64,000 nt of DNA, taken from Prorocentrum cordatum. Lineage: Eukaryota > Sar > Dinophyceae > Prorocentrales > Prorocentraceae. The stretch spans positions 207,001-271,000 of the forward strand of contig CAUYUJ010014627.1 of the NCBI GenBank assembly GCA_963575745.1, given 5' to 3'. The notes beneath the pieces are model-generated. The model was given only the letters and a program-made list of their open reading frames with translations, made no database searches and was not told the origin of the DNA. The translations under genes and the position numbers were made by a program. Shown here one piece after another: positions 5,092 to 60,648 of the stretch (position 1 is its first letter; each line of letters starts with the position of its first letter).

Positions 5092-5113
5092 TCTGTAGCC
5101 ATTTTGGCTCAAG
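5092..5113 (+). other. Relict dinoflagellate spliced leader (DinoSL)
   Basis: The 22 bases match the conserved dinoflagellate spliced leader at 21 positions. The last 20 read TGTAGCCATTTTGGCTCAAG, where DinoSL has a C instead of the first T. That one difference is a CpG to TpG change. DinoSL is added to nuclear mRNAs by trans-splicing, so a genomic copy directly before a coding remnant means an mRNA was copied back into DNA. Confidence 0.9.
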
Positions 5114-23660: not shown

Positions 23661-24046
23661 CCAGGCACCGAGAGGGCGCGCACAAGAGGAACCGGGCGCG
23701 AACATTTCTCCGCCTAGGCTGCTGTGGGGGGGGGCGGGGGGGCGGGGGGGCCCGGTGAAAAAGAGATTGGGCCGCTCCTGCGGCGGCGATGATCCAGGAC
23801 GACCCGATCGACAGCCATGTGCGACGGTGATCGGCTCGATCAACGGTCGGCGCCGACTGGCGACGGCCGAAAATCAGTCGGCGACGGCAATCGACGGCGA
23901 CGACCGACGATCCTGTCGGGGACGACCGACGACCACCGGCGACGAGCGACTGCGACGACCGACGATCCGTCGGCGACGATCGGCCACGGCGACGATCACC
24001 GGCGACGGCCATCGACGAAGATCGCCCTCCGCCGAGCTCCGCCGCC
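23661..24046 (+). repeat. Dispersed repeat family E, copy 1
   Basis: Collinear with 25721-26110. Shared blocks are CACCGAGAGGGCGCGCA, then CTCCTGCGGCGGC, GATCCAGGACGA, and a long tract of CGACGATC-type hexamers in the same order. About 385 bp, the longest duplicated unit in the window apart from satellites. Confidence 0.65.
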
Positions 24047-24323
24047 CCGCGGCGAGGAGGACGCACTGGACGCCGACGCGCGGCGGCACGCCGACGCGGA
24101 GGGCGCCTGCGCGTCGGCGTGCCGAGTCGCGGCGGCCGTGGCGCCCGCGGCGGTGCGCGGCGGCACGGCCGCGGCCCGGGCACCGCCGCGCCTGCAGGCG
24201 GCCGACGGCGCCGTGAGTGCCGTGGACGTGGGCAGGCTCGGGCGGGGATTCGGATTCGGATTCGGAACGATGGCGACGCAACATCTCATCATCGAGCACA
24301 AGAGAACCCCGAACCCGAATAAC

Positions 24324-24477
24324 ACGATGGAGACGTGGCCTCACTGAGTTCCCCGTCTTCGCGTTAGGGGGTTGGGTCTGATACACCTGCAGAAAAGACC
24401 CCCCTATGCCTCATTGTTTTGGCCCTCCGAACTCAGGTCCCCTCCCAAAGGGTTTGAGGTCCTTTTTGGGTTAATCA
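24324..24477 (+). repeat. Dispersed repeat family D, copy 2
   Basis: Homologous to 18811-18978. It lies between two related 40-bp sequences (24262-24302 and 24673-24715, both with GATTCGNAACGAT-GCGACGCAA), so it may have inserted into an older duplication. Confidence 0.65.
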
Positions 24478-24897
24478 TCTTAGCTGCCTCGATGCGCCCG
24501 TTTCGATACGCAGCACGCGCCGTTCTCAGAACGTCCGTGTCAGTGCGTGGCGCGTTGGCTCCACGTACATCGGCTCACGTTTTGGCGAGCGTATCGCGTC
24601 AGGCCGTTTTCGGTCTGCGTGTTAAGCTCCGTGTTAAAACGTTACGGGTTGGGTGTTGCGTATCGGGGCAGCTAAGATTCGTAACGATTGCGACGCAATA
24701 TCTATGTCGAGCATGCGACGCCCCCCTGACCTTGAAGACGCACTGGACGACAAGGAAGACGAAGCTCCACACGCACGGCGCGATGAGCCGCCGAGGCACG
24801 ACATCGAGGCAGCTAGGAGCCAAAAGAAATGGCTGTGGACCCGCCTCGAGTCGCATGTGCTGGGAGTTGGGGCTCACGTAAGGGGTCATCGCTAACA

Positions 24898-25352
24898 GAG
24901 GTCAGCCAACCCCTCTCAGGCTGACGTGGGTTTGGGAAGGGCGGACAGGGAGGGGAATCGGGGCTCGCGTCGGAACGAAAGAAGTGGGTCCGGGAATAAT
25001 GGGTGCGAAGGTCGAATGTCCTGTTCATTTTGAACAGGGCACGCTCTCGATTTTGCCGCGATCGTTGTCCATTCGAGACGGAAGGCCGCCTGCCCAACAG
25101 CGGCCGCTGTCGGCTTCGGACTACATTCGTTGTTTGGCATCACGCCTGTTGTATTGATTTCGGACGTCCATAGTAGCGGAGGTCAGCGCTGATGGGGGTC
25201 AGCCAACCCGCTCTGGCTGACGCGGGTTTTGGGAGCCACGTGGGGCCGATTCCCATTTCTGCCCTCCGCTGGCCTGGGTTTGGGAGCTACCAATCGGCCG
25301 GCCGGGCTTCGCGACATGGCTCTGGCTGACCCGGGTTTGTGTTGACCGGGGT
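24898..25352 (+). repeat. Family P: three copies of a GGTCAGCC...GGCTGAC motif
   Basis: Copies at 24898-24940, 25177-25234 and 25312-25352 share GGTCAGCCAACCC, CTCTGGCTGACG and GGGTTT-GGG. Each is a small hairpin (GTCAGCC pairing with GGCTGAC). Intervening sequence is unrelated by eye. Confidence 0.55.
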
Positions 25353-25720
25353 TGGTGCTTTCCCGAGGGAGGGGGAGGGGGAGGGGGAGGAAGTGAGGAG
25401 TGGGGGTGGAGGAGGAGCGGGAAGGAGGGTGGGGAGGAGGGAGGACGAGGCGGAGGGAGGGGAGGAGCAGGAATTGAAGCAGGAGGACGAGGCGACTGAT
25501 GACGAGGGGGGAAGGGGGGATGATGAGAGGGATAAAGGGGAGGTGTGGGAGGTGGTCACAGGCCACCCCGCCGTGGGAAACCGGGGGGGGGGAAGGTGGA
25601 TGATGACGGCGAGGAGGAGGGAGTTTTTGTTTGGCTGCAGCCGTGCCGAGGCAGGCGCATGGGATCAGTTAGCAAGGGAGCTCAGGCGCGCCATCTCGCA
25701 GACGTGAGGGGTACGGCAGT
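25353..25720. other. Non-coding, GGA-rich
   Basis: 25367-25530 is GGA/GAG-rich. No gene is supported. Confidence 0.5.
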
Positions 25721-26110
25721 GTCCAGACACCGAGAGGGCGCGCAAAAGAAAAGCCCAGCGCGAGCATTCCTTCGCCTCGGCTTCCGTGCGGGGTGGGGCC
25801 CGGCGGGCCCGTGGAAGAGGCTGGGCGACTCCTGCGGCGGCTACGATCCAGGACGATCCGATCGGCAGCGACGATCACGGGCAACGATCGACGACCACAT
25901 CGACGATGCTCGGCGGCGATTGACGATCCGACGCCGACTGGCGACGGCCGACAATCGGTCAGCGACGGCAATCGACGGCAACGACCGACGATCCGTCGGG
26001 GACGACCGACGATCACCGCCGACGAGCGAAGGCGACGACCGACGATGCGTTGGCGACGATCGACCATGGCGACCGAAGCGATCGTCGGCGAGGCCCGAGC
26101 GGCGCCTCCC
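25721..26110 (+). repeat. Dispersed repeat family E, copy 2
   Basis: See 23661-24046. The two copies are 2.06 kb apart in the same orientation. Confidence 0.65.
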
Positions 26111-26257
26111 CCGTCGCGGCCGAGGCCCGCGCGGCACGCGGTGGCCGCCGCCCCGGCAGCCGCGGAGGCGCAGGGGTCGGCCACCGCCGCGGCGGGCCCC
26201 CCGCGGGTAGCTAGGAGCCGCGGCCCCCGGATCCGGGGTGGGTCGGGGGCGGCGATG

Positions 26258-26430
26258 GTCAGAGGAGGGGAGGGTGCCCACACCGCTGCCCCTCTGTCGT
26301 GTCCGCCTTTTGGGGGCATCCTGGGAGGCCCTCGCCACCACCGCTGGGTTCGCTTCGGAGTTCTGGCCAGAACGCTCCCCAGGCGGGGCCTGGGGAGTGG
26401 CGGTATCGGCACCTTCTTTTTCTCCCCAGG
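26258..26430 (+). mobile_element. Intron-shaped inverted-repeat element, family C, copy 2
   Basis: Begins GTCAGAGGAGG, ends CTTTTTCTCCCCAG, and is followed by GTAGG. Terminal inverted repeats are GGTGCCCACACCGCTGCCCC (26273) and GGGGAGTGGCGGTATCGGCA (26392). The core CCTCGCCACCACCGCTGGGT matches copy 1. It has the ends, length (173 bp) and 3' pyrimidine tract of an intron. The bases on either side do not give a recognisable protein. Confidence 0.65.
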
Positions 26431-27200
26431 TAGGGGCACATGCAGCCAAGACGCTGAAGTCAGGACAGCCTTTTGATTCGGATCGGGCTCGCCGTTCCTC
26501 AGGCCATTTCGCGGTTGTTCCTGTGGCCCTCCTCGTGCACCCAGGCGCTGTTGGCGCTAGATGGGCTTGGTTCCTTACTTAGCGTTCCTTATTTCAGCGG
26601 CCCTTCTGTAGCCCAGGGGCGAGCCGATGGTCCATGTGTTCGGCGAGGCTCCCCAGCGGGATACGTGTAAGGCCCGCCCCTGGGCTAGTTGCCCCTATCG
26701 TCGCCGCCGAGTGGGAGGGATCGCTGCGTGAAATCCGACCCCGACCCAGACCTCTGGGTCAGTTTCGGAGGTCGTCACGGCGATCGTGGCGGCCACACTC
26801 TGGGACATTGGTATGCCCCAGGCCATTGGTATTGCCTGGGGCCAATCGGCTTTGGCAAGGAGGGGCTCACCCCTCCCCAGCCCCCCGCCCCCGCTCTGCG
26901 ATGTAGACGCGGCTCGTAATTCACAATAATCTAGTGACAGATAGCTGTCAATGTATGGTCAACATGGCTACACGTCAGTCGTTGGAAGTAGGTACTCCGG
27001 ATTTCCAGATGCCAATCTACTTCAAGCGCCTTCCTATTTCAATAATCGGTATGTTTCTGCTGTAACGTAATACTTCTCTGGGAGAACCTGAAACCAATCT
27101 ACTTGATCCGCCTTCCTACTTCATGCTTTTACCCAATGATTCCGACCAGCGTGTAGTCAGTTTTTTGGGGTGAGGGGTCGATTCTCACACACCTGAGGGA
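26431..27200. other. Non-coding stretch
   Basis: No gene is supported. 26935-27160 is less GC-rich and contains a repeated CCAATCTACTT / CTTCCTA-TTCA motif (near 27010 and 27093). Confidence 0.4.
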
Positions 27201-27334
27201 GTTAGAGGAGAGAATATTCCGATGCTGCTGCTCGTCCTGGATAGCCCTCGCCGCCACGCTTGGACCTGCTTCGAGTCAGGGACACAACCTGGGGGAGGTC
27301 CAGCAGCGGTGCCAGTGGGTGGTTTCGTCTGAAG
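27201..27334 (+). mobile_element. Family C element, copy 3 (shorter)
   Basis: Begins GTTAGAGGAG, then a CCGATGCTGCTGCTCG arm, the core CCTCGCCGCCACGCTTGGAC and a GCAGCGGTGCCAGTGGG arm, ending GTCTGAAG. It is diverged and about 40 bp shorter than copies 1 and 2. Confidence 0.5.
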
Positions 27335-28297
27335 ACTCTATGATGCGTTCCAAGCGAAGAGATGACACAGCACGTTTGGGTTCAGGAGTTCTGGGATCCG
27401 CTGTATGGCCGACAGGAGCCCGGAGCCAGCGGCATTGGTGCCTTTTTTTGTATTCCGTGCACGGAGGGCGGGGCATCGGCATGGGGTCTCGGGCCAGAGG
27501 GACTGGAGGCGATGATAGGGGCGAGCAGCCTCGTGGCGGCCACAGCACGCAATTGCCGGGGAGCCTCGCCGAAGGCGTGGACCGTCGGCGCCCCTGGTTG
27601 CAATGTGTTGCTTCCCCCCTGGGCTATATTCGCCCCTGTCGTCGCTCACGAAGGGAGGGTGAAGCTTCCGGATCGCAGGCCCCCTCCGCCTCCGGGAGGG
27701 GAAATGAGGATGGAGGGAAGGAGAGGGGGGGAACGAGGGGGAGGAGGAAGAGGAGGAGGAGGAGGAGGAGGGTGAGAAGGACGATGAGGACGAGGAGGAG
27801 GAGGACGAATGACGGAGGATATGAAGAAATAGAAAGGCGACGACGACGCTGGTTTGTGTGCTTTTGTACATACTCATTCAGGCTGTTCTGGGGGTGGTGG
27901 GGGGAATCATGGCGGGAAGGGGACACGGAAGAAGGAGATGGCGGGAATGGGGAGGGAATGATAAAGAGGATCTGAGGACTGCACAAGGCCTCGAGGATGG
28001 GAACGGGAGGAAGACGACGGGGAGGAGCGGAGGAGGGAGAGGTGCGGGATGTCCCGGAGGAGGAGCCGGGATGCATCAAGCCAGAAGTGGAGGAAACATG
28101 GTGAGGATAAGGATGGAGGAGGATGAGCAGAAGGCGGATGACGAGGAGAGGAGGAGGAGGACGGTGGATGAGGAGAGAGGGAGGGAGCACGTGACAAAGG
28201 TTGGGAGGGAGGAAAAGGACGGGGATGAGGTCGACTAGAGGAAAGAAGAATACGTGAGCGCCACCTGCAGGCCGCCCTGCCACAGCAACCAGGAAGA
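27335..28297. other. Non-coding, with GGA tract
   Basis: 27715-27810 and 27990-28230 are GGA/GAG-rich. No gene is supported. Confidence 0.45.
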
Positions 28298-28456
28298 GCA
28301 TTGGCGAGGTTTTCTCGGAGTGCGACCCAGGACAATCCTTCAGAACTCCGCTGGGATGCATTAGCGAGGTTTTTTTTTTCCAGAGTGCAACCCAGGAGGA
28401 AACTGCCGAGCTCCCAGGAGAAACAGTAGCGAGGTTTTCTCGGAGTGAAACCCCGG
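28298..28456 (+). repeat. Three copies of the GCGAGG...CTCGGAGTGC motif
   Basis: Copies at 28298-28330, 28358-28395 and 28423-28456. The consensus is GCATTGGCGAGG, TTTTCTCGGAGTGC, then (A/G)ACCC-GG. Copy 2 has a run of 10 T. Five more copies lie at 32.5, 34.0 and 35.6-35.7 kb, all in the same orientation. Confidence 0.8.
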
Positions 28457-28767
28457 AGAAGCTAACGGCAGGGGCAGAATGGAGAGAGCTACAGGAGCGC
28501 CCCACGGCAGACCAGATGTGGAAGAAATGGATTGAGGCAGGCAGGAATGCCATGAACTAAGTGTTCCCCATCAAGAAGAAGCAGGAAGACAAGGGGGTGA
28601 CCGCCTTCCAGTTAGTACGTCCTTCCCTACTGGCCAAACATGAATGGAGTTAAGAGCGGGCATGGTAAAGTCTGACACGCAGGAGAGTCTGGCATGGTGG
28701 AGTTCAGTGGACTGGCTCAAATAACTGGGCAAACACCCCCACGAAAGGGGGGCTGGTAGCCGAACCG

Positions 28768-29254
28768 ATGGACCGGGAAGGGTACGAGCAGGAGCATGAC
28801 GAGATGATAGCAGAGAATATGCCGCTCCCATTGGACATGGAGTTGGGGGCCCAAGTGGAGAGGGATAACAGAAACATGCAGAAGTACTGCAGGAATGCGG
28901 CAAAGACGGGGGGTCCCCCCGTGGGGAGTACCAGCGGAACTAACATGGGTGATACTGGAACCTACAGTCAACCTGGAAGACCCTGAGCAGCTGAGCAATA
29001 AGCTGGAGCAGCAGATAGCACGGGCGGCGGAGAACCGAGATGACTAGGAAGACTTGGACAAGCACAGCTCACTCTACAAGTACAGAGTGGCAGGGCTTGT
29101 ATTCCAGAAAATGGGTTGGACATCAGGCAGAGCGCTGGGCAGGACAGGCAGAGACGACGATGGTGAAGCATTACGGGCGACGGAAAAACAACGTATCACC
29201 CGGGGAGACATGAGAAAGTTGGGATGGGACCGTCGGCGTTGGAGAAAGACGTGA
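28768..29254 (+). pseudogene. G-patch-like ORF remnant upstream of LINE B
   Basis: One frame from about 28960 reads EDPEQLSNKLEQQIARAAEN, a stop at 29045-29047, then LVFQKMGWTSGRALGRTG and on to 29254. The FQKMGWxxGRALG spacing resembles a G-patch (a short glycine-rich RNA-binding motif). A separate frame, 28768-28986, is acidic and Asn/Met-rich. They precede the RT block, so they may belong to its ORF1. Identification is tentative. Confidence 0.35.
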
Positions 29255-30239
29255 GTATGGAGTGCAGGAACAAGCTACAGGACATCCTCATCAAGTGTCG
29301 CCAATATCAAGCTACTCCTTTGTATTGGCACAGGTACGTTTCCTTCTCTGCAGAAAAGGCAATCAAACCAGGGTATTGGAGGAAAAAGAGTCATGCACGC
29401 AGATTGCTCAATGGGAATGGCCCTTCACAAGGGTACCCATTACAGTGGGAAACACCGAGACACCCATGTCGGGCCCGGGGAGGGCTTAGAAATATATCGA
29501 GAGAGAACGCGATTACCTGCGTCGAGGCCACACAGTGGAGAGCAAGGCAGGCAGGAGCGAGCACCATCGCCAGCAACTGCGACTGCACAAACGCCTTCGC
29601 GAGCACGAAACGCAACCTCCTGCTGGCACCAGTCTTCGCCATTTCGAAAGAGGAGGACCTACCATTCGCTGTTGAGTACACTACACTTCAATGGGCATGG
29701 AATGCGCCGGCGACTGGCTGCATGCGCAGACCACGCGAGGGGTGCAAATGGAATGTGCCGTGCGCCCAACAGTCCGATGATTCTTGCAACCTCTACGTGG
29801 GACAGTGGCACCAGGAAGAAATGGAGAGGGGCGAGATGCAGACAGTACGTGGTGCAATGGGCCCAGCCAACGAACAAGAGCACGACCTCTCGCTCAACAC
29901 TTTCATGGGCGACATCATCAAGATCCACGCAGTGGCATCGTCGGGGCCGCCCCCACAGGAGACTGGAGTTAGCGAGGTAATATCGGGCACCATTTGGGGC
30001 TCGGCGAAAGCGAGGATTTCCGGGCTCGCCCTTGCCCCCGTTCCTTTCGGCTCTTGGCGGAAGCTAGGTTATCTCGGATCGCCCCGGAGCCCGCGCGAGA
30101 AGACTTGCAGACCAGATCGACGCCACCACGCAGCGCCTAGAGCGCAAGTTGGAGAAAGGAGGATGGAGCTTGAACCCAGCCAAGACCAACCACCTGGTGA
30201 CTTTTCGAGGGCCAGGGCGAGACGGGACCACGAGGCAGC

Positions 30240-30313
<74 letters not shown>

Positions 30314-31130
30314 GAGAGAGAGAGAGAGAAAGAAAGAAAGAAACAGAGAGAAAGAGACAGAGATATCAAAACAAGAGAAGAAAAACACAAACAAACAAAA
30401 AGAGGATCAAGGGCACGCCGGCGAGGGAGATGAGGGCACTGGGGCCACGCCTACCAGATGATCAAGGATACGCGGGAGAGATCAAGACGAGGTGCGAGGC
30501 CACGCAGGTAGCCTACAGACAATGTGGATGCTTCTGGTCTTCAGATACTACAGACATGATAAAGAAGGAGATGTGCCGGGCGTTTGTTTCGGGGGCAGGC
30601 CCTAGTGGGTCGACGGCGCTTGTGCTGGTGGAAAGTCACTCGAAGGCACTCGACAGTACGATGGCTCTACTTTTGAGGAGAATGGCAGGAGGCAGGATGA
30701 GCTGGGTAGAAGTAGATGGACCGACCAGGTGCTACGCCAACAAGGAGTTTTGTCAGGAGACGGAGGACGCCGCGCTGATCGACAGCACCGAGGATGCGCA
30801 GGCTACGGTGGTGCAGACCATGTGCGAAATCTCAGGGGGACTTTGGCGGTGTGTTGGTAGCAGTTTTTGGCGCGTCGAAGCTGGGCAGCCTCTATCAGAC
30901 CAGGAGATTGGAAATTGGGTGGGCGTGCGAAAGATCTACGCCATGGGCCGGGCAGGCGGTCAGGGACATCCAGGCGCTGGCGGAGGTCAGCGAGGACGCC
31001 AGGAGCAAGTGCCCGACGAGGCAGTCAGACATCTGAATGTTCAAGAAGGGCGCGAGAGATTGGGAAACGTGGATTGGGGCGGACCCCAGTGTCCCACGCC
31101 GCGCTGAAAAAGGCCTGAGACACAACGCTA
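29224..31130 (+). pseudogene. LINE B reverse transcriptase remnant
   Basis: An open frame of 627 codons (29224-31107) contains motif A NCDCTNAFASTKRNLLL (about 29575-29625) and a motif C-like SLNTFMGDIIKIHAV (29893-29937), where the usual (Y/F)xDD reads FMGD. The next piece, ERKLEKGGWSLNPAKTNHLV, is in another frame at about 30140-30200. After an AG microsatellite the thumb returns as LGPRLPDDQGYAGEIKTRCE and then LVLVESHSKALDSTMALLLR. The tail (30794-31118) matches the EVSEDA-type 3' end of dinoflagellate LINEs. Frames change at least twice, and motif C is damaged. Confidence 0.6.
30238..30337. repeat. AG microsatellite inside LINE B
   Basis: About 100 bp of AG dinucleotides, followed by AAAG units to 30355. 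It lies between the RT palm and thumb pieces and coincides with a change of frame. Confidence 0.95.
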
Positions 31131-31779
31131 TTAGAAATTGCGGTGGGAGGAGAAGTGGTGGTTCAGTTTTGGCGTGCCTGGGAAACTGGGACAGAGTGGC
31201 AGGTGCGCGGGGCGCAAGTTATTGCGGCGGCGGCGCTGGCAGGGCGCGGGGGCGTGGCACGCGATTGTCTTCCGCTTGCCCCTAGCCCGGCGATGGCGAC
31301 TCAATGTCCACGGTGATTGAGCTCTTCTGCGCCAGCAGAAACAACGACCGACCATGTGCTGAGGGCGACGGGGGGCCGCAGGATCTGCTACAAAAAAACA
31401 GAAGCTGATGGAAACACCCAGTACAATAACACCCTTCCTTCGTCTGCATCCCCTATGGCTTCCAGGCTCAATCCTTGGAGGGCCTTCAGGTGCGCGCGCG
31501 CGCTGCCATCGTCCTGGGCCGCGCTGCGCGAAAGATGGCGATGGCACCGCGGAGACTATCCCCGCCCAAACGAGGAGCAATCGCGGAGAGGGAAGGAGAG
31601 CCGAAGCACCGCGGGGGCGGCAAGGGAAAAGGAAATGACCAGTGGCACGCAAAAGGGACCAGCGCCAAGGCAGCGGGAAGCTCGCCAACGGCCGCGGCCG
31701 CGGCGACGGGGTGGAGCGGCAAAGGCGGAGGAGGAGGTCGCAGACCCCCCCCCCCCGCGCCCGCCAGTCATGCGCAGCG
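31131..31779. other. Non-coding spacer between LINE B and next ORF remnant
   Basis: GC-rich with no recognised gene or element. Confidence 0.4.
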
Positions 31780-32492
31780 GGCGACTACGAGGAGTTCGTC
31801 CTAAGAGGGCGCACCGACGGACTTCAGAGGCTGGCCTTCCGCTGGGCAGCAGAGATCAGAGATGAACAACAGGTCGGACTTCTTCCCCGCGCCAGTCAGC
31901 AATCGGGCGTTTCGGAAGTCGACGGCAGCGGGGCAGAACTACGGGGGCCCGGTCAGGGAGAAGGGCAAGCGGCTCAAGATGGGGCCGCCAGGCGCCCACG
32001 TGGGGATGGCGCTCATGGAAGGCATCCAAGAGTTGGTGTCGGACTGGCAGAAGGAGGATCAATCAGCAGTACCAGCATCCAAAGATCGAGCAATGGACGC
32101 CCTGAACGACTTCCGGAAGCTGATGGAGGACAACAGCGGGCACAGCCAGGCCATGATCACAGAGGCGATCAAGATGTGCAAGGTCAGCGAGATCTACGTG
32201 GCGCGCACCTAGAAAGAACAGGAACCCGAACGAGGACGAGCAGGATTTCTGGGAGGAGGGCTCGGGCAAGATCCAGATCGGCACCAACGAGCCCCCCAAC
32301 TTCAGAGCGGCGCTTCCGAAAACCACGAAGGAAGCCACCATGGCGAGGCTGGGCCAGTCCGCAGGCCGCAGCCTGAGGATTGCGATGGGGATGCGGATCG
32401 TCTACGTGGGGGGTAAGAAGCCCCAGTCGGCGGCGCCCGAACCGGAGCTGGAGAGGACGGTGGAGCGGGAACTTCAGCGTCGGCGCCGCTGA
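31780..32492 (+). pseudogene. ORF1-like remnant, one frameshift
   Basis: The frame starting ATG 31862 reads MNNRSDFFPAPVSNRAFRKS, then ALMEGIQELVSDWQKEDQSA and an acidic helical segment, with a stop at 32210-32212. Shifting frame there gives RKNRNPNEDEQDFWEEGSGK and LQRRRR, ending at TGA 32490-32492. Both halves have protein-like composition and no other stops, so a single indel near 32205 explains the break. Upstream, DYEEFVLRGRTDGLQRLAFR is in a third frame. It resembles the charged ORF1-type proteins near dinoflagellate LINEs; I cannot name a domain. Confidence 0.5.
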
Positions 32493-32509
32493 GGATGGAG
32501 GAGGTGGTG

Positions 32510-32598
32510 GCATTTGCGAAGTTTTCTCGGAGTGCTGCGCCACAGAGGCCAGAGGGGGCAGTTGCATTGGCGAGGTATTCTCGGAGTGCAAAGGCCCC
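32510..32598 (+). repeat. Two copies of the GCGAGG...CTCGGAGTGC motif
   Basis: Copies at 32510-32541 and 32564-32598, starting 17 bp after the ORF stop at 32492. A decayed third (GGAAGTTTTCCCAGTGCGAC) is at 32750-32769. Confidence 0.8.
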
Positions 32599-32799
32599 AG
32601 GGCAGAGTGCCAGGCCACGGCTGGCGCGGACAAGCACGTGCATTGCACCTCCGACGGCGTCAGCATCGTGCAGTGAGGGTGCCGCCTCAGGGGGGCCACC
32701 CCCTAGGGCAGTTGGCGTAGCTGGCGTGCCCAACAGCGCGCAGACGAGGAGGAAGTTTTCCCAGTGCGACCCTACCTAGGAGTTGGAGCATCTAGGAAA

Positions 32800-32955
32800 G
32801 CAACATCTACATCTACACCGACAGCTACATTAACATCTACACCTTCATCTACATCTACATCAAAATCAACAGCGTGACCCACATCTACACCTACATCTAC
32901 ACCTGCATCTACATCTACATACACATCTACATCTACACCTACACCTACATCTAGG
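32800..32955. repeat. CATCTA hexanucleotide array
   Basis: About 155 bp of ACATCT/ACACCT units. Confidence 0.95.
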
Positions 32956-33410
32956 GTGCGCTCGGCTGCGCTGTGTTGTGCTAGGCTATGCTATGCTATG
33001 CTGCGCTGTGCGATGCTATGCTACGATATGCGGCGCCATGCTATGCTATGCTATGCTGCGCTATCATATGCTAGGCTATGCGATGATATGTTATGCTGCG
33101 CGATGATATGCGCTGCTGTGTTATGATATGAATTGCTGCGCTATGCTATGCGATGTTATGCTGCGCTGCGCTATGCTGCGCTGTGCTATGCTAAGCAATG
33201 CTATGCGATGCTATGCTGTGCTATGCTATGCTATGTTGTGCTCGGCTGTGCTATGCTTTGCTATGTTGTGTTAATGCTGCGCTGCGCTATGCTGCGCTAA
33301 GCTAAGGTAAGGTAAGCTGTGCAGGCTAGGCTAGGCGAAGCTAAGCTAAGCTAAGCTAAGTTAAGCTAGGCTAAGCTAAGATGAGATAAGCAACGCTAAG
33401 CTAAGGGGCC
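32956..33410. repeat. TATGC pentanucleotide array
   Basis: About 455 bp of TATGC, TGCGC and TGTGC units, drifting to AAGCT units after 33290. It abuts the CATCTA array. Confidence 0.95.
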
Positions 33411-33567
33411 GTCACTGGGGGAACTGCGGGGCGGATGCCGGGGGGGCCGCCCGGGGCGGGGAACGCTGCCCGGCCCTCTAAGCACACCGAGTAAGAACCC
33501 TTCTAGGCAGAGCCTAGGTAGGGAAATATGCTTTTCGAATGATCATAGAATTGCATAATCAATCAGC

Positions 33568-33729
33568 ATGGACGTTGAGCGCCCCGCCGAACTCAGACGT
33601 TTTGCCCCGAATGGTAGGATATACGGAATGGCCCTGAAGTTCCGAGCAGAGCGGGAAGCTGAGTTACAGGGAAACGCATTGGGCAAAGGCCTCTGTGGCA
33701 ACAACCAGCCCACCCATCCCAGTCAGTAA
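33568..33729 (+). CDS. Small ORF, unidentified
   Basis: ATG 33568 to TAA 33729 gives 53 residues, MDVERPAELRRFAPNGRIYG and then ALKFRAEREAELQGNALG. Composition is protein-like (charged, no low complexity) and unlike its neighbours. It might be an exon or an element fragment. No homology is recognised. Confidence 0.25.
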   Translation: MDVERPAELRRFAPNGRIYGMALKFRAEREAELQGNALGKGLCGNNQPTHPSQ

Positions 33730-33862
33730 ACGACGCCATCTACCATTGCGACACGATGCGATTATTCCTCCATCTTTCCATTGCATATACGGAGAGATGG
33801 TGGGCGGGGCACCATGCACACTGCGCGGCAATCGCACAATGCAAAGACGGGTTGCGGTCGAG

Positions 33863-33882
33863 GGGGGGGGGGGGGGGGGGGG
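33863..33882. repeat. Poly-G run
   Basis: About 20 consecutive G after GTCGA. Confidence 0.9.
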
Positions 33883-34000
33883 CAGCGTGCGAGGTGCCGC
33901 GAGTTTGCCGGGGCAGATGGGAATACGCTATTATATCCATCGCTCATACTCGGTTGCCACAGCCGATATTGGTCAACGCTGGGCAATGTGCGCAGTGTGG

Positions 34001-34030
34001 CGCACTGGCGGGGTCTCTCGGAGTGCGTCA
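34001..34030 (+). repeat. Single copy of the GCGAGG...CTCGGAGTGC motif
   Basis: GCACTGGCGGGGTCTCTCGG followed by AGTGCGTC. Diverged but collinear with the consensus. Confidence 0.65.
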
Positions 34031-34262
34031 CGCGCGGTGGCCATGGCCATCGCGGGCAGCAGCCAACTACGGCCCTGCGGGCGTGGCAACAAGGGTTTCC
34101 ATAATTAGGAGGTGATCGAGGACCACAGGGGGCACGCGAGAAACGAACCAGGTCATCAAACATACCAGGCAGGGAGGCAAAGGCAGGGAATAGAAAAGAG
34201 AGCGCATCGACTGTGGGCTGGAGCTGAGGCAGGGGGAGAAGGGAGATCGGAGCGATGAAGAA

Positions 34263-34544
34263 ATGACACTGCATGGAGTAGAAAAGTACACTTCGAGAGA
34301 GCAGGTCTGCCGAGAACAAAAGATGACAGCAAAAGGGGCCGCGTGGGCAGCCCAGGCACTAGGGCATATCAAAGCAGCGCAAGCACTACTGGAGGAAGAA
34401 GGAAGACCAAAGCAAACGTCTCGCACGCAAAGGTACACGATGGCCATCGAGAGGTCGATGGAGATGGCAAAGGCGCCGCTGGGGGGGATCAAGATGAATG
34501 AAAGTATATTCGCTGCCTTTCTAGCAAACCAGGAGAAGGCATGA
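34263..34544 (+). CDS. Unidentified ORF, overlaps next ORF
   Basis: ATG 34263 to TGA 34544, 93 residues, rich in Ala, Glu, Lys and Met, predicted helical (AAWAAQALGHIKAAQALLEE, later AIERSMEMAKAPLGG). It ends in ATGA, overlapping the start of the following ORF, so a single indel could join the two. Possibly retroelement ORF1 or a host exon. Function unknown. Confidence 0.4.
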   Translation: MTLHGVEKYTSREQVCREQKMTAKGAAWAAQALGHIKAAQALLEEEGRPKQTSRTQRYTMAIERSMEMAKAPLGGIKMNESIFAAFLANQEKA

Positions 34545-35104
34545 CAGAGGCTCTGCGCTGCGCGGAAGAATTCGGCATCCGACTCAACGAGTACTTGGCC
34601 ATGGGCGTCAACGGCGAAGATGCGCTGAAGGCGGCAAACCAGGAGTTGGAGGAGAAAGACAAAGAGCTGCGAGAAATGGGCGACTACAAGACGGCGAAGA
34701 ACAGGGGGGAGAAGCAGCCGGAGTTCCTCAAGGCGCTGGACTTCGTGGACAAGTGGGGCGACAACATGCCGCTGTTCAACGCATGCAAGAGGGGCGCAGG
34801 ATGGGGCGAGAAGAGGGGGGGGGGGGCATGCTTGCGCGGGCTCGCCTTCCCAGACAAGCCTCGGCGGAGATGCCCCAGCCCCAAGTCGAGAGGGGGCAAC
34901 TGGCAGTTCTGGGGCAAGGCGGACGGGTTGCAGCTCGTCAAAGCGCAGGCGAGCCACCCAGAGGACGTGCTCACGAAGGAGCGGGTGGACAAGATGAAGG
35001 AAACGTTCGGCGCCGACTGCGAGGGGTGGCCAAGGAGCGGGCGCGGGTGCATGTTCCTCCCGTTCAAGAGTGGGCCGTCGATTGTGGCGGAGCTCAAGGT
35101 GTGA
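34541..35104 (+). CDS. Unidentified ORF, coiled-coil N-terminus
   Basis: ATG 34541 to TGA 35104, 187 residues. The first 60 are strongly helical (GEDALKAANQELEEKDKELR), followed by a basic Gly/Cys segment around a poly-G run and a C-terminal part with KERVDKMKETFGADCEGW. Another frame after 35104 reads QLVDAIKECRYRFFDAAQKM and stops at 35222, so the gene may be longer and broken. No named domain; context suggests retroelement ORF1 or a host gene fragment. Confidence 0.4.
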   Translation: MTEALRCAEEFGIRLNEYLAMGVNGEDALKAANQELEEKDKELREMGDYKTAKNRGEKQPEFLKALDFVDKWGDNMPLFNACKRGAGWGEKRGGGACLRGLAFPDKPRRRCPSPKSRGGNWQFWGKADGLQLVKAQASHPEDVLTKERVDKMKETFGADCEGWPRSGRGCMFLPFKSGPSIVAELKV

Positions 35105-35241
35105 AGCAGTTGTGGGACGCTCATTGCAGAAAGGCCACCGCAGCAGCTAGTCGACGCCATCAAGGAGTGCCGCTACCGGTTCTTTGACGCTGCCCAAAAG
35201 ATGAGCCCAGAGGAGCTTTTCTGATCCCCGCGTCCGTTTCG

Positions 35242-35577
35242 ATGACGCACAATATCGAAGGTTGCGACCTCGTCGCAAGGTGCCCTGTCGACACGTGGGC
35301 AAGGTCGGGGAGCGAGGCCTGTGCTGCGCAGAGCTGGTGTGAGCTGGCATTGAATATAGCAGAGGACGACGAAGAGAACCTCCGCAAAGTAACGAAGGTC
35401 GCCAGAAAGGAGCTGAACAACGAGGACAACCTCGACCCAGAGAATGTGTTGGAGCGCCAGAAGCTACGAGACAGCACGCTGACCATGCTGGATCAGCTCC
35501 GAGATCTTCGCGGCAAATTTGGCTGCCCAAGGTCGGAGGTGACAACTGCGGCCAGCTTCTCCAGCGGCCACGAGTGA
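35242..35577 (+). CDS. Unidentified ORF, acidic helical
   Basis: ATG 35242 to TGA 35577, 111 residues. The second half is a charged helix (ALNIAEDDEENLRKVTKVAR, then LDPENVLERQKLRDSTLTML). It is followed 36 bp later by a GCGAGG...CTCGGAGTGC motif, as is the ORF ending at 32492. No known domain. Confidence 0.4.
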   Translation: MTHNIEGCDLVARCPVDTWARSGSEACAAQSWCELALNIAEDDEENLRKVTKVARKELNNEDNLDPENVLERQKLRDSTLTMLDQLRDLRGKFGCPRSEVTTAASFSSGHE

Positions 35578-35612
35578 GCGCACCCACTGGAGCCTGCTTG
35601 TGCGCCATGGGA

Positions 35613-35722
35613 AGCATTGGCGAGGCTTTCTCGGAGCGCCGCTCTTAGGCAAGCTGCACGCTGGACGTGCCCACGGGCAGTAACGAAAAGCATCCGCAAG
35701 GTTTCTCGGAGTGCAACTCAGG
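35613..35722 (+). repeat. Two copies of the GCGAGG...CTCGGAGTGC motif
   Basis: Copies at 35613-35641 and 35690-35722, separated by 48 bp, downstream of the ORF stop at 35577. Confidence 0.8.
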
Positions 35723-36059
35723 ACAGACAGGATGGGCATCACGGAGCGCTCGCACCGTCATCGCAATGGGAAGTTATCTTTGGAGTGCTGACAGGTACAA
35801 TACTGCAGAGTGTCGAAGGGGAAAAAAGTGGTCATCAGGAAAATCACCAGTATGCTTTTCCATGGCCCTACCATGTACCGTGACTGCCAGCATGCTGCGC
35901 CACGCATGCGCTCCCAGGGGGGTCGATGGGATGCGACAACATGGTATCAAAATACAGATGCGACAATACATGGGGCATCTCCTGGACAAACCGAGAAGTG
36001 AGCGGAGCGGGAGAGGGGGGCACATAACATGTGGCACGCGTGCCCTGGCTCTTGCACAA
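35723..36059. other. Non-coding stretch
   Basis: No gene is supported. Confidence 0.4.
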
Positions 36060-37620
36060 AGGTGTCCGAGGTTCAGGGGGGCTGCCCTGGGAAGCCTGGG
36101 CGGGGGGGGGCAGAGGGGGGGGGGGGGGGCAGGGGGGCGAGCGACACGACACGACACGACACGAAAATAAAAGTGGCCCAGGGGGGCTACCCTGGGAAGC
36201 GTGGACAGGGGGGGGGGGGGGGGGGGCGAGGGCACCCTGGGAAGCGCGGCAGGGGGGGGGGGGGGGCGAGGGGGGCGGGGGGGGGGGCGAGGGGGACGAA
36301 CGACACGACGAACGACGAAAATAAAGGGTTCCGTGGCCCAGGGGGGCTGCCCTGGGAAGCCTAGACAGGGGGGGGGGGGGGGGGGGGGGCGAGGGGTACC
36401 TTGGGAAGCGCGGGCAGGGGGGGGGGGGCGAGGGGGAAGGGGGGGGGCGAGGGGGGCGAACGACACGACGAACGACGAAAATAAAGGGTTCCGTGGCCCA
36501 GGGGGGCTACCTTGGGAACGTGGACAGGGGGGGGGGAAGCGTGGACAGGGGGGGGGGCGAGGGGGGCGGGGGGGGGACGACGAACGACGAAATAAAGGGT
36601 TCCGTGGCCAGGGGGAAGCGTGGACAGGGGGGGGGCGAGGGGGACGAACGACACGACGAACGACGAAAATAAAGATGTCCGAGCTCTAGAGCACAGCTGT
36701 GCAAGAGAATAAAGGGTTCCGTGGCCCAGGGGGGCTACCCTGGGAAGCGTGGACAGGGGGGGGGGCGAGGGGGACGAACGACACGACGAACGACGAAAAT
36801 AAAGGGTTCCGTGGCCCAGGGGGGCTACCCTGGGAAGCGTGGACAGGGGGGGGGTTGGGGGGGGGGGCGAGGGGGACGGGGAGGGCGAGGGGGGCGAACG
36901 ACGCGACGAACGACGAAAGTAAAGGGTTCCGTGGCCCAGGGGGGCTACCCTGGGAAGACAGGGGGGGGGGGGGGGAGGGCACCCTGGATGGTGGGGGGGG
37001 GGGAGGGGGAGGGGGGCGAGGGGGACGAACGACACGACGAACGACGAAAATAAAGGGTTCCGTGGCCCAGGGGGGCTACCCTGGGAAGCGTGGACAGGGG
37101 GGGGGGCGAGGGGGACGAACGGACGAACGACGAAAATAAACAGGGGGGACCCGAACGTGGACGAAAATAAAGTAAAGGGTTCCGTGGCCCAGGGGGGCTA
37201 CCCTGGGAAGCGTGGACAGGGGGGGGGGGCGAACGAAACGACGAACGACGAAAATAAAGGTTTCGTGGCCCAGGGGGGCTACCCTGGGAAGCGTGGACAA
37301 GGGGGGGGGGGGCGAGGGGGGCGCGGAGGGGGCGGGGGGACGAACGACACGACGAACGACGAAAGTAAAGGGTTCCGTGGCCCAGGGGGGCTACCCTGGG
37401 AAGCGTGGACAGGGGGGGGGGGCGAGGGGGAGGGGGCGGGGGGGGGCGAGGGGGACGAACGACACGACGAACGACGAAAATAAAGGGTTCCGTGGCCCAG
37501 AGGGGGCTACCCTGGGAAGCGTGGACAGGGGGAGGGGCGAGGGGGACGAACGACACGACGAACGACGAAAATACAGATGTCCGAGCTCTAGAGCACAGCT
37601 GTGCAAGAGAATTAAAGTAG
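36060..37620 (+). repeat. G-tract minisatellite, about 13 copies
   Basis: Each unit has GTGGCCCAGGGGGGCTACCC, TGGGAAGCGTGGACA, a run of 7-20 or more G, CGAGGGGGACGAACGACACG and ACGAACGACGAAAATAAAGG. Cores lie near 36070, 36173, 36333, 36493, 36604, 36721, 36811, 36931, 37062, 37184, 37265, 37377 and 37492, so spacing is 81-160 bp and varies with the G run. A 40-bp flank (GAGCTCTAGAGCACAGCTGT inside) occurs at 36674-36714 and again at 37576-37617. Open frames through the array are repeat-derived. Confidence 0.95.
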
Positions 37621-38340
37621 AATAAGCAGCCCACCCAGCAACAGTTTGGGGTCACGGGCCTTCCGTCCCTCCCCTTCATCCTCCTTTTAGGTCGTGTCGT
37701 CGTCCCCTCCTGCCTGCCTTGGGCGCTCTGCTAAGCCCGCGCGTCCCCTCCCCTTGGGGCACGCGGACGGGCCGGCAGCCGTTCCCCCCGCACTGACCCG
37801 CAGGGACTCGTGATGTAAGGTAGCGAGCCTCTTTTACCGGGCCACTTCGGAGGTCGGTCCTTGAGCTACGCGGCATGCCCCCTCTCGGCCCTAGCGGGAA
37901 GGCAGGGCTGTAGCGCAAGCAATTGCATGGAGTTGTTGACAGAAGTGCGTAAGACACTTGAGAAGGTGCACTGACGTTGCACCCCCTTCTACGGATGTCC
38001 TTGTCCTTGACTTCCTTGCCTGCGGAATCCACCAGCCATGCGCACGCCATCACCAGCCTTGGCCAGGCCCAGGCCCATGGTGGGCCTTGGACTTGTGTGT
38101 CCAGGCAGGGCTCCAGGTCGGCGCCCCCGCCAGATGGGATGGCCGTGGGCGCGCGAACTGGCGCACGCGAGCGCGCGTGGGCAAGCGACCACGCGCGCAC
38201 GGAAACAACACGACGTGGCTCGAGCACAACACGCACGCACGCGCGAACGTACACACTCCAGGGGCCCGCGCGCACGCGAGTGCACGCGATCGCATGGACG
38301 CGCAGCTGAACTCCGCCCGCATCGTTCGGCTGCGAGCCCG
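37621..38340. other. Non-coding stretch
   Basis: No gene is supported. 38150-38300 is rich in CGCGCAC-type dinucleotide repeats. Confidence 0.4.
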
Positions 38341-38729: not shown

Positions 38730-38850
38730 TCGGGCGGGTGGCAAGGGCGGTGACCCAAATGAAGGGTGAAGAGAAGGGCCTTAAAAGAGCCCTTCAGGGC
38801 TCTTCTCTTCACCCCTCATTTGGGTCACCCCCCATTGCCACCCGCCCGAT
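38730..38850. mobile_element. Perfect-looking foldback hairpin (element T)
   Basis: The left arm (38730-38777) has CGGGCGGGTGGCAAGGGCGG, then TGACCCAAATGAAGGGTGAA. The right arm (38800-38850) is its complement with a few changes (CTCATTTGGGTCACC, TTGCCACCCGCCCG). The centre is GAGCCCTTCAGGGCTC. The whole 121 bp folds into one stem. Confidence 0.85.
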
Positions 38851-39108: not shown

Positions 39109-39291
39109 GATGGGGCCTGGTCCCTTGGGGGCAGAGCAGATGGGGTCGGAGGATCGCGCCGCATCGCCGACACATCGGCGATGCGGCGCGATCCAAAGTC
39201 TGATTTTCTAGGTCCCAACGTCGCCGATGCATCGGTGATGCTGTGGCGATGCGGTGTGATCCCCCGACCCCGTCTACTGTGGGGCCCCATC
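39109..39291 (+). mobile_element. Inverted-repeat element family A, copy 2
   Basis: The left arm contains GATGGGGTCGGAGGATCGCG (39139) and the right arm GTGATCCCCCGACCCCGTCT (39255). Between them are CATCGCCGA-CATCGGCGATG palindromes. The same TIR and core make up the PH-gene intron at 57386-57526. It is followed by TTGCAG|GT, an acceptor-like end. Flanks share TTGC only, so a target duplication is not clear. Confidence 0.7.
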
Positions 39292-39901
39292 TTGCAGGTC
39301 TCCAGGTGCACAGTTGCCTGCAACTTCCGACATTTCCTCTGGGGGGTTCCCGGAATCCACCTGTCGGGGTTCGCCGGACCCCTCTGAGTCGCTTGGCGAT
39401 CGAAGATAGGAGCAGGAAGAGGAGGAGGAGGAGGAGGATGAGTCGCATCTGCATACATGTCCCAAGTCAGATATTAAACTATCTGAGCAACTCGTGAGCA
39501 CTGCAGAGGCTGGGTTAAAATACCAGGGGGCTATATCGTTTTGGGAGCGCTGGGCCTGGTGCCGCTGTCGGTGCGCGCGCAGCGCAGACAGTCGCACCTC
39601 GGCGCGGGGTTGCTACAACATTTTCTTTGCGATAATTTCCTTGAAGTTGAATCCGCTGCCTTAGTAGAGCTTCCATCTTATCCTGCCAGGGACGAGGACT
39701 CAACGACCTGAGGAAACGAAGCGAGGGAGGAGGATCCGAGCGAACCGAAGGAGGCTTCGACGAGGGGCGAGACGAAGGCGGTCCCTGGACAAGACTGCTG
39801 GTGGCTGGCCGCTGTGCTGCTGTGCTCTGGGAGAACGACTCCTGATCTGTGTTGCTTCTGTTGCGGGCTTGCCCATAGTGCTCAGTACCTACTGGTTGCC
39901 T
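39292..39901. other. Non-coding stretch
   Basis: No gene is supported. A GGA tract is at 39412-39438. Confidence 0.4.
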
Positions 39902-43697: not shown

Positions 43698-45108
43698 GCA
43701 TCCCTCTGGGCCGTGGTGCCACTGAGGAGGAGGAGGAGCAGCAGCAGCAGCAGCAGCAGCAGGATCGAGGAGCGATACTCGTCCACGATGGTTGCCGAGG
43801 GGGTCAGTGAAGGGGGGCAGGCCTTCGCAGAGGGCGGCAGGGCTTCTCAGAAGCCACGGGGCCCTCTGGGAAGCCCTCCGCGTCGTCGGGGAGGGGGCTG
43901 TGGAAGAAAAAGAGATCACCCTGAGACCACCTGTCGCCCAAAGGGCTGGTGGGATTCCTCAATTCCTCCCTCCAAACCGTATCCTATGAGAGTACACATT
44001 CCTATTGATTCTTCTCTTGCATTGCTATCGGAGGAGGAGGAGGAGGTGGAGGAGGAGGAGGCTTCTCAGGCGCCTTCCTGAGAGACGCCGCCTCCTCTCT
44101 GCCTGCCCTCCCGGGCGCGCTGACGATCCAGAGGCTCTTCCAGAGGGGCCTCTGGAGGCCTCCGTGGGCCTCTCCCGCTCGGGCCTCCGTCGGCTCGGGG
44201 GCCTAGGTCTCCTAGATGGGGTCGGAGTACGTCGGGCCCCCGACCAGGGAGGTGTTTCGCGTTTCGCACTTCGGGCCGGGCAGGGCCGTCTGGATCCACG
44301 GGTCCGTAAGCCGTTTTGGCGTGTGCCCGAAAGGCGTCGGGGGTCTCGGTAAGGATTGTCCTTCGTCTGGGCCGCGCCTCCTCTCAGCGGCCCGCCTCTG
44401 CGCTGGCTAGCCGTGAAGCAGGCTCGCGCAAACGATCCCCTCTTTCTCCTAGGGCGGCGTCAATTGACCACCTCAACCAGCCTGGCCGGGCCCATTCCTG
44501 GCCCAGGATGCGTCCACACGCCCCTCTGTTCCGGCCAGGGAGGCGTGGGAGCCGATCCTCGGAGCAGGGCGGTCCAGTTGATGTCCCCCGATTCCTCTCT
44601 TCCCTCCTCCCTCCTCCCTGGCCGTGCCCTTCCCCTCCGAGAGGAACGCTTCGCTCTTCTCCCTCCTCCATCCTTCCTGGCCGCGCCCTTCGCCTCCGAG
44701 AGAGGAACGCTTCGCTCGTCCAGAAGACGTGGACGCAGCGCAGGAGCAGCTGGCCCTCGCTGCCCCGCCCTCTGGAGGGCATGAGCGAGGCGGGGTGAGC
44801 GGAAGGGGGGGGGAGGGGCGGCGGACGGATCAAGGGGCCAAGGCCCATGAGGACGGCCCGCGAGGGGGCATGATCCCCCCCCTTGTCCTCCCGGATCCCG
44901 CCTCGTCCATCCTCGTGCTTCCCTCCTCGTCGTTCCCCCCACCGCCTTCCACATCTCGGCAGGGATGGAGAGCATGGGTTGCACATGCGTCGTTTCTCGA
45001 GCAGTGCGCGCTACACATTCGCACTCGTTAGGCAACGGTCCTAGAACACCTCTTCAGCAGTGGCGCTCTGCTGGGGTCTCGTCCGGCCAGTGTGTGTCAT
45101 TGATGTTG
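43698..45108. other. Non-coding, with small repeats
   Basis: GCA repeat at 43737-43763; GGA tract at 44031-44066; a two-copy 62-bp duplication at 44617-44721 (CCTCCGAGAG-GGAACGCTTCGCTC); a partial family B at 43810-43890. A GATGGGGTCGGAG block at 44215-44227 resembles the family A arm. No gene is supported. Confidence 0.5.
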
Positions 45109-57158: not shown

Positions 57159-57180
57159 GCTGTAGCCATTTTGGCACAGG
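57159..57180 (+). other. Probable relict spliced leader upstream of the PH gene
   Basis: Nineteen of 22 positions match DinoSL (CTGTAGCCATTTTGGC, then ACAGG where DinoSL has TCAAG). It shares the CpG to TpG change at position 3 with the copy at 5092. It lies 82 bp before the PH-domain ATG, a normal 5' UTR distance. Weaker than the first copy, but unlikely by chance. Confidence 0.65.
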
Positions 57181-57262: not shown

Positions 57263-57997
57263 ATGCAGGGGCCCCTGGACACGCGCAGCGGCGCCAGGAT
57301 GGGCAGGTGGACGCGGATGCACTGGTGCCTGGACCTCGAGGCGGGAACGCTGCAGTCCAGCTGCCTAGAGGGAGACGGCGGCCAGGTTCTAGGCCTCCCA
57401 GGTGGGGTCCGAGGGGATGGGGTCGGAGGATCGCGCCGCATCGCCGATGCATCAGCGATGCGTTGGCGATGCGTTGGCGATCCTCCGACCCCATCTACTC
57501 GGACCCCATTAGGGAGGCCTCTACAGGTGGACCCGGCGACGGCGGCGGCGGCGCATGAGGTGAGGCTCCTTGAAAAGCTGCAGCTGAATCCCGACAAGTG
57601 CGAGCTAACGTTCCGCAAGGGCTCCTGCGTGTTCCGCCTGAGGGCCCAGTCCGAGGAGGAGGCACGCGAGTGGTTCGAGAAGCTCAAGCTGGGCGGGGCC
57701 GCGCCAGGATCGAGCACGGGGGCCTCCGGCGGAGCGCCGAGAGGGGGTGCGGCGAACGGGACGGCCTTCGAAAGAGGCAGGGGCTCGGGGCTGGATGATG
57801 CGAGCCTCCAGCCACGCGCTTTCTCTTCCTTCCTCCGTCCTCCCTCCTTCCTCCTTCCTCCTTCCTCCTCCTCATTCTCCTCATGCTCCTTTCTCTTCCC
57901 TCCTCGACCACCAGCGCGCTCGACCTCCGATTCTCCCCCTGCCTCTCCCTCCTACTCTAGCCCCCCAGCCTTTGAAGGTGCCTCCGAGCTCTTCTGA
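57263..57997 (+). CDS. PH-domain protein, two exons visible (5' part of gene)
   Basis: ATG 57263 sits in GCCGCCATGC with an in-frame TGA 15 bp upstream. Exon 1 (57263-57385) codes 41 residues: GPLDTRSG, then GRWTRMHWCLDLEAGTLQSS, the first strands of a pleckstrin-homology (PH) domain, with the W and the CLDL strand in place. Exon 2 starts at 57527, in frame, and ends the domain with ELTFRKGSCVFRLRA and SEEEAREWFEKLK, the typical C-terminal helix with its conserved Trp. Removing the 141-bp intron gives a PH domain of about 95 residues. PH domains bind phosphoinositides or proteins at membranes. After residue 95 the frame is Gly/Ala-rich and then runs into a TCC tract (57830-57900), so the true exon probably ends near 57790 and more exons follow outside recognition. 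The partner domain is unknown. Confidence 0.7.
   Translation: MQGPLDTRSGARMGRWTRMHWCLDLEAGTLQSSCLEGDGGQVLGLPGGVRGDGVGGSRRIADASAMRWRCVGDPPTPSTRTPLGRPLQVDPATAAAAHEVRLLEKLQLNPDKCELTFRKGSCVFRLRAQSEEEAREWFEKLKLGGAAPGSSTGASGGAPRGGAANGTAFERGRGSGLDDASLQPRAFSSFLRPPSFLLPPSSSSFSSCSFLFPPRPPARSTSDSPPASPSYSSPPAFEGASELF
57386..57526 (+). mobile_element. Introner: family A inverted-repeat element forming an intron
   Basis: A phase-0 GT-AG intron of 141 bp inside the PH gene. It consists of a 136-bp element (57388-57523) with 44-bp arms: left AGGCCTCCCAGGTGGGGTCC and GATGGGGTCGGAGGATCGC; right GCGATCCTCCGACCCCATC and GGACCCCATTAGGGAGGCCT, about 39 of 44 paired. It is flanked by the direct repeat CAGGT (57383-57387 and 57524-57528). 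The left copy gives CAG|GT and the right copy CAG|GT, so splicing restores the uninterrupted codons exactly. The core repeats GCGATGCGTTG. A second copy of the family is at 39109-39291. Confidence 0.8.
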
Positions 57998-60401: not shown

Positions 60402-60648
60402 CTTTGTGGGCCCCGGAAAGGGCAGGGCCGGTTTTTTCACTGTTTCCAAAAAATGTCCCTTCAAAATGGAAGCCGCAAAAAAACGGCGACCGGAAACGGC
60501 AAAAAAACGGCTCCAGGATTGGAACCGGAGCCGGAACCGGTCAAAAAACGGCGACGGAACCGGTAAAACAACGGCGTTGGAACCGGCACAAAAGCTGCAA
60601 AACGGAACCGGTAAAAAAACGGCCCTGTCGTTTTCAGGGCCCACTAAG
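60402..60648. mobile_element. TIR element with 8-bp target duplication (MITE)
   Basis: Flanked by GTCACGCT at 60394-60401 and 60649-60656. The ends are CTTTGTGGGCCCCGGAAAGG and its near complement (GTTTTCAGGGCCCACTAAG), with CAGGGCCG and poly-T/A next, about 33-bp TIRs. The 247-bp interior is a minisatellite of CGGAACCGG and AAAAAACGGC. There is no transposase, so it is non-autonomous. An 8-bp duplication is typical of hAT-type transposons, though the TIR sequence does not prove that family. Confidence 0.8.

Follow-up and report, generated by a model that had tools for sequence, protein, structure and literature searches.

How could a protein-coding sequence acquire an intron that is itself a transposable element? 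This question is raised by 141 bp that interrupt an open frame in the window, that is, the whole 64 000-nucleotide stretch of DNA analysed here. A sequence-only reading of the stretch had described an insert of 47 codons in phase 0, beginning with GT and ending with CAG, a description that is accurate on direct reading of the sequence. The explanation that appears probable is that a non-autonomous foldback element sits in an exon of a gene for a PH-like protein and acts as an introner whose core splice dinucleotides come from the target, the gene itself being a retrogene.

An exon-like sequence split by an insert

The interrupted gene consists of the following parts.

57263..57385, plus strand: exon part before the element, with the presumed start codon and the N-terminal part of the PH-like protein; GC at the third codon position (GC3) in 38 of 41 codons; in-frame stop upstream
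57386..57526, plus strand: putative intron, 141 bp, GT...CAG, phase 0, the excision of which would leave one CAGGT and the frame (direct reading)
57527..57707, plus strand: exon part after the element, with the C-terminal part of the PH-like domain; GC3 in 52 of 58 codons (57527-57700); right end provisional

Counted together, the two flanks have GC3 in 90 of 99 codons; for the insert, taken in the frame of the flanks, the figure is 24 of 47 (Fisher p 1.8e-7). By this measure the flanks, unlike the insert, look protein-coding. Beyond about 57700, the third-position bias declines. A donor-like site CAG/GA (here and below, the slash marks the splice point) at 57708 is of a form compatible with the GA donors of dinoflagellates given in the donor table of PMC10666404.

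The encoded protein is best called PH-like. Four Pfam models match it, three of the PH type (PH_8, SOS1_NGEF_PH and PH) and the unrelated Thg1C, each below its cut-off; the best of these, PH_8, reaches 19.7 bits at residues 58-94 (E 0.0011), short of the gathering score of 30. The PH domain named in the sequence-only reading is accordingly less firm. The Pfam matches lie mainly downstream of the insert, so that the N-terminal half is called PH-like from reading by eye only. With the insert kept in the translation, the PH_8 score falls from 19.7 to 17.8 bits. A structure search with the insert removed gave a weak, gap-free alignment of 61 residues to the PH domain of GRK2 (1bak; 15.2 bits, E 0.18), which begins 7 residues upstream of the junction, whereas with the insert kept, the GRK2 match drops to 11.8 bits, is confined to the part beyond the insert and is outscored by four unrelated chains (E 0.65-0.97), so that this search carries little weight either way. 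Searches of a large protein collection yielded no homologue among 748 candidates at E<=0.01 and, in a second search, none among 201 at E<=1. Three matches were dismissed as chance: the weak similarity of the insert translation to SelO chains in the structure search with the insert (E about 0.9), the sub-threshold Thg1C match and one sub-threshold match to an NCBIfam phage family.

Anatomy of the foldback element

Almost the whole of the insert is occupied by a foldback structure bounded by two copies of CAGGT, both of which are seen directly in the sequence.

57383..57387, plus strand: left CAGGT, putative target duplication, holding the CAG/GT donor
57388..57523, no strand assigned: MITE-like foldback element, filling the 136 bp from one CAGGT copy to the other
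57391..57434, plus strand: left arm of the inverted repeat, pairing with the right arm at 39 of 44 positions
57437..57473, no strand assigned: inner inverted repeat in the spacer, with 17-nt arms
57477..57520, minus strand: right arm of the inverted repeat, 44 nt, pairing with the left arm at 39 of 44 positions
57524..57528, plus strand: right CAGGT, putative target duplication, holding the CAG acceptor

The 44-nt arms enclose a spacer of 42 nt, within which the second, 17-nt inverted repeat is nested, and at each end, three poorly pairing bases separate the arm from CAGGT. The segment 57388-57523 accordingly has the terminal inverted repeats of a MITE or TIR DNA transposon, with pairing at 39 of 44 positions and poor pairing of the outermost 3 bp. 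As RNA, the element is predicted to fold into one long hairpin of -133.9 kcal/mol, compared with -75.9 +/- 4.3 for shuffled sequences (z -13.6; none of 200 as stable). Of the 48 inverted repeats spanning 40-500 bp that were found in the window, it has the highest ungapped arm score (31.5, followed by 28.5), and the best scores in 20 dinucleotide shuffles of the whole window were 12-16.5. The foldback with 44-bp arms between CAGGT copies, as first described from the sequence alone, is therefore confirmed with pairing far beyond that of shuffled sequences. It could not be upheld as the strongest foldback in the window, because an unrelated one at 38730-38849 is slightly stronger by gapped blastn self-match (E 1.1e-31 vs 5.9e-29 for the element). 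Likewise abandoned as a firm claim was the earlier proposal that the insertion is recent because the arms pair well: 5 of the 44 arm positions are mismatched and the starting state has no reference, so that good pairing fits, weakly, a young element and provides no clean clock.

A second member of the same repeat family is directly seen about 18 kb away.

39121..39301, no strand assigned: degraded further member of the family of the element, with internal rearrangement, delimited by similarity (blastn, alignment, fold)

This copy matches the element in two blastn segments, one of 60 bp at 88% identity and one of 71 bp at 82%, with a rearranged middle, and its fold is likewise more stable than expected (z -7.0). 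The element is accordingly a member of a repeat family, judging from the sequence, and with members at 57.4 kb and 39.1 kb, the family is dispersed, as expected of a MITE. The second copy does not speak for any specialisation of the family in introns. No convincing target duplication was found at its ends, the longest repeat shared by the flanks being 5 bp, a length reached by chance in 64% of trials in which generous limits were placed at random with the same freedom. None of 10 open frames around the copy (from 11 frames of at least 180 codons beginning between 36364 and 43218) had a Pfam hit at E<=0.01, and no GC3-biased stretch was found at 35.1-40.8 kb in 40-codon windows, which are blind to exons under 40 codons. 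The sequence-only reading had set against its own interpretation the case of family members found mostly outside genes and without direct repeats; the single additional copy that the window contains (n=1) leans that way.

Further copies were sought within and beyond the window. A 25-bp likeness at 44203-44227 detected by blastn was too weak to count as a family member. An 18-mer arm pattern had no match in a collection of viral contigs, from which the genome of the window may be left out; in a collection of genome contigs, again possibly without the genome of the window, an arm 18-mer had two matches in bacterial records. These were attributed to chance, by which 257 billion bases with equal base frequencies should contain 7.5. 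Rfam models at gathering thresholds and a tRNA scan found nothing in the window.

Splice signals within the repeated pentamer

The CAGGT repeats could account for both splice sites. Under the introner explanation, a transposase supplied in trans would have inserted the MITE-like foldback into a coding exon of the PH-like gene, duplicating a CAGGT target. Since the target that was duplicated contains AG/G, a donor (CAG/GT) would be offered by the left copy and an acceptor (CAG/) by the right one, and the spliceosome could then excise the element together with exactly one duplicate, restoring the mRNA as it was before the insertion. The corresponding claim of the sequence-only reading, namely, that excision at these sites regenerates the pre-insertion sequence, holds: removal of 57386-57526 leaves a single in-frame CAGGT.

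How much weight the pentamer can bear depends on the freedom allowed in locating it. In random placements within the window, five matching bases are found by chance in 0.6% of cases with a fixed offset of 3, in 2.2% with symmetric offsets of 0-5, and with free offsets, in 4.1% (any of 0-3), 7.2% (any of 0-5) and 15.4% (any of -3 to 6, the range that the inverted-repeat scan uses when seeking direct repeats). By itself, the 5-bp repeat is modest evidence of target duplication, which nevertheless appears a plausible interpretation of the CAGGT pair. Nor is the repeat independent of the splice consensus.

The splice signals add a separate consideration. AGGT is present in 0.6% of all 5-mers in the window, and AGG with T, C or A after it in 3.5%, so that a neutral insertion would be unlikely to gain a duplication with usable splice signals, whereas an insertion that survived by being spliceable would be expected at just such an AGG-bearing target. 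This argument is partly offset by the reading frame. The insert has a length divisible by 3 and contains no in-frame stop, a combination with a chance of ∼1/3 x 0.44 = 0.15, and given that retention in a working gene requires both properties, retention is favoured by them roughly 7 to 1. The open frame as an argument for coding was judged weak, since 44% of random 47-codon stretches are open. With rough likelihoods of ∼30-150 for the splice signals set against ∼7 for retention, the intron reading would be favoured several-fold.

A third CAGGT, at 57399-57403 inside the left arm, provides an alternative CAG/GT donor at 57402; splicing from 57402 to 57526 would remove 125 bp and the frame would be lost. 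The strong hairpin of the element might hinder splicing.

A probable retrogene marked by a relict spliced leader

The spliced leader of dinoflagellates (DinoSL) is joined to mRNA after transcription, so that a relict leader in the genome marks a retroposed mRNA; relicts located 50-100 nt before the start codon are described in PMC6050394 as better conserved. A search of the window with 21 of the 22 nt of the leader found two matches, compared with none in 100 shuffles.

5093-5113, plus strand: second relict DinoSL, 1 mismatch in 21, marking another retroposed sequence
57160..57180, plus strand: relict DinoSL upstream of the interrupted gene, 3 mismatches in 21 (leader sequence confirmed in PMC6050394)

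These two relicts show the window to be dinoflagellate nuclear DNA. In both of them, the CCG of the leader is replaced by CTG, possibly through a CpG transition. The relict at 57160-57180 spans positions -103 to -83 relative to the ATG at 57263, with 82 nt in between, and overlaps the -50 to -100 zone of the better conserved relicts (PMC6050394). A relict DinoSL upstream of a coding sequence is the feature by which dinoflagellate retrogenes are recognised in that work, and such a relict is present here, with the ATG at 57263 inferred to be the start codon. The interrupted gene is thus most likely a retrogene.

If the host gene was copied from a spliced mRNA, an intron within it is most simply a later gain, which would set the order of events as mRNA, then retroposition, then intron gain. 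The full claim, that a foldback without either core splice dinucleotide of its own gave rise to a clean intron in a retrogene tagged by a spliced leader, with the leader and the duplication together ordering the events, is tentative, its probability falling a little short of even.

Intron gain by transposon insertion, including cases in which both splice sites come from the target, is already published (PMC9860276), and as a single case, the present locus would be one well-ordered example of this known mechanism. Among the papers listed by a literature search on retrogenes, intron gain, dinoflagellates and introners, a scope that did not extend to the text of Roy et al. 2023, none combined retrogenes, dinoflagellates and introners, and no report of an introner inside a DinoSL-tagged retrogene was found. 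The interest of this combination lies in dating: a gene copied from spliced mRNA should begin without cis-introns, so that the gain of any introner found in it can be dated relative to the copying. Were the explanation correct and such cases common, the retrogenes of dinoflagellates would form a genome-wide set of targets that began without introns, each with its own start date, in which introner gain could be measured, and introner counts across DinoSL-tagged retrogenes would yield the rate.

Alternative explanations

It is unlikely, though well worth weighing, that the element is an ordinary MITE lying in an exon and kept in the mRNA, where it would lengthen the PH-like protein by 47 amino acids; the fit to splice signals would then be a coincidence. 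The size of 3 x 47 without an in-frame stop would suit such retention, the other family member (39121-39301) shows no sign of being an intron, and the insert falls in a loop between PH-like strands, a placement made by eye where Pfam matches are mainly downstream. The position of AG/GT exactly at the junction, in a class of 5-mers that makes up 0.6% of the total, argues the other way, as do the slightly better PH scores without the insert and its codon composition, which is not coding-like, although a young insertion would look alike. That the introner was inherited is a somewhat less probable turn of events: it would have been present already in the parent gene and carried along when a transcript that had been trans-spliced and was not yet cis-spliced was retroposed. 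This version overlaps the preferred one, from which it differs only in the order of events, and intron retention is reported in dinoflagellate retrogenes in PMC6050394, but it needs an extra step.

Splicing and translation would be irrelevant if the locus were a dead retropseudogene, with the element in sequence that is no longer expressed. The relict leader marks a retrocopy and the protein collection gave no homologue at the thresholds given above, both in favour of a dead copy, but the frame is open, third-position GC is strong in both flanks and the survival of dinoflagellate retrogenes is described as high (PMC6050394), which makes this explanation quite improbable. Finally, the CAGGT pair could be no target duplication at all and the hairpin a local palindrome unrelated to transposition. 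A 5-bp repeat is indeed expected in 0.6% to 15% of cases depending on placement freedom, but a second occurrence of the foldback sequence, 18 kb away, points to a repeat family, and the strength of the hairpin exceeds that of shuffles, so that chance is hardly credible as the source of the entire arrangement. An introner gained in a retrogene is the explanation that appears to fit the locus best.

Relationship to known introners and MITEs

The sequence-only reading stated that introners with TIRs and target duplications occur in dinoflagellates, and the literature bears this out (PMC9860276, PMC7789003, PMC10666404). Introner families with target duplications of 3-9 bp and/or TIRs are described in PMC9860276 (Gozashti et al. 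2022). According to the legend of Fig. 2 of that paper, the introners of Symbiodinium microadriaticum have a 4-bp TSD and a TIR, with the donor derived from the TSD, and those of Florenciella, which is not a dinoflagellate, carry neither splice site, both being provided by the insertion site. In Amoebophrya A25 and A120, introner elements are described with inverted repeats of 8-20 nt, direct repeats of 3-5 nt over the exon/intron boundaries and a predicted hairpin; these were defined among non-canonical introns, and a similar layout is given for 1% (A25) and 15% (A120) of the canonical ones (PMC7789003, Farhat et al. 2021). For Prorocentrum cordatum, whose genome has a mean GC content of 59.7%, introner elements are described in which an inverted repeat stands at either end of the intron (PMC10666404, Dougan et al. 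2023). The introner work of Roy et al. 2023 (Curr Biol) is summarised in PMC11453091.

The present element shares with the algal and dinoflagellate introners of PMC9860276 its short size, its location in a putative intron, terminal inverted repeats, a putative short duplication and putative splice sites that appear to derive from the target; it differs in that its flanking repeat measures 5 bp and contains both core dinucleotides, and in that there is one candidate intronic copy. The inverted and direct repeats over the boundaries and the hairpin recall Amoebophrya, but the arms are 44 nt, compared with 8-20 nt, and the intron ends are GT-AG instead of non-canonical (PMC7789003). With the P. 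cordatum elements, it has in common the inverted repeats at both ends, and the GC content of the window, 61.0%, would suit a high-GC species of that type (PMC10666404). From these features, the element is probably a further introner of the published kind.

MITEs are non-autonomous elements without coding capacity that have terminal inverted repeats, a target duplication and multiple copies (in part, PMC7789003). The element resembles them in these respects, with a target duplication that is putative, the difference being that a MITE in general need not act as an intron.

Other features of the window

Two more foldbacks were observed. The one at 38730-38849 is a different, near-perfect foldback (86% over 121 bp, fold z -12.8) with TACA at both sides, the left copy being one base off. 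The other, at 60402-60648, has 36-nt arms and the exact 8-bp direct repeat GTCACGCT on either side, a duplication that we take to be reminiscent of hAT-type elements. The AT skew of the window is mostly positive at 24000-38000 and mostly negative elsewhere, which perhaps reflects a change of gene direction.
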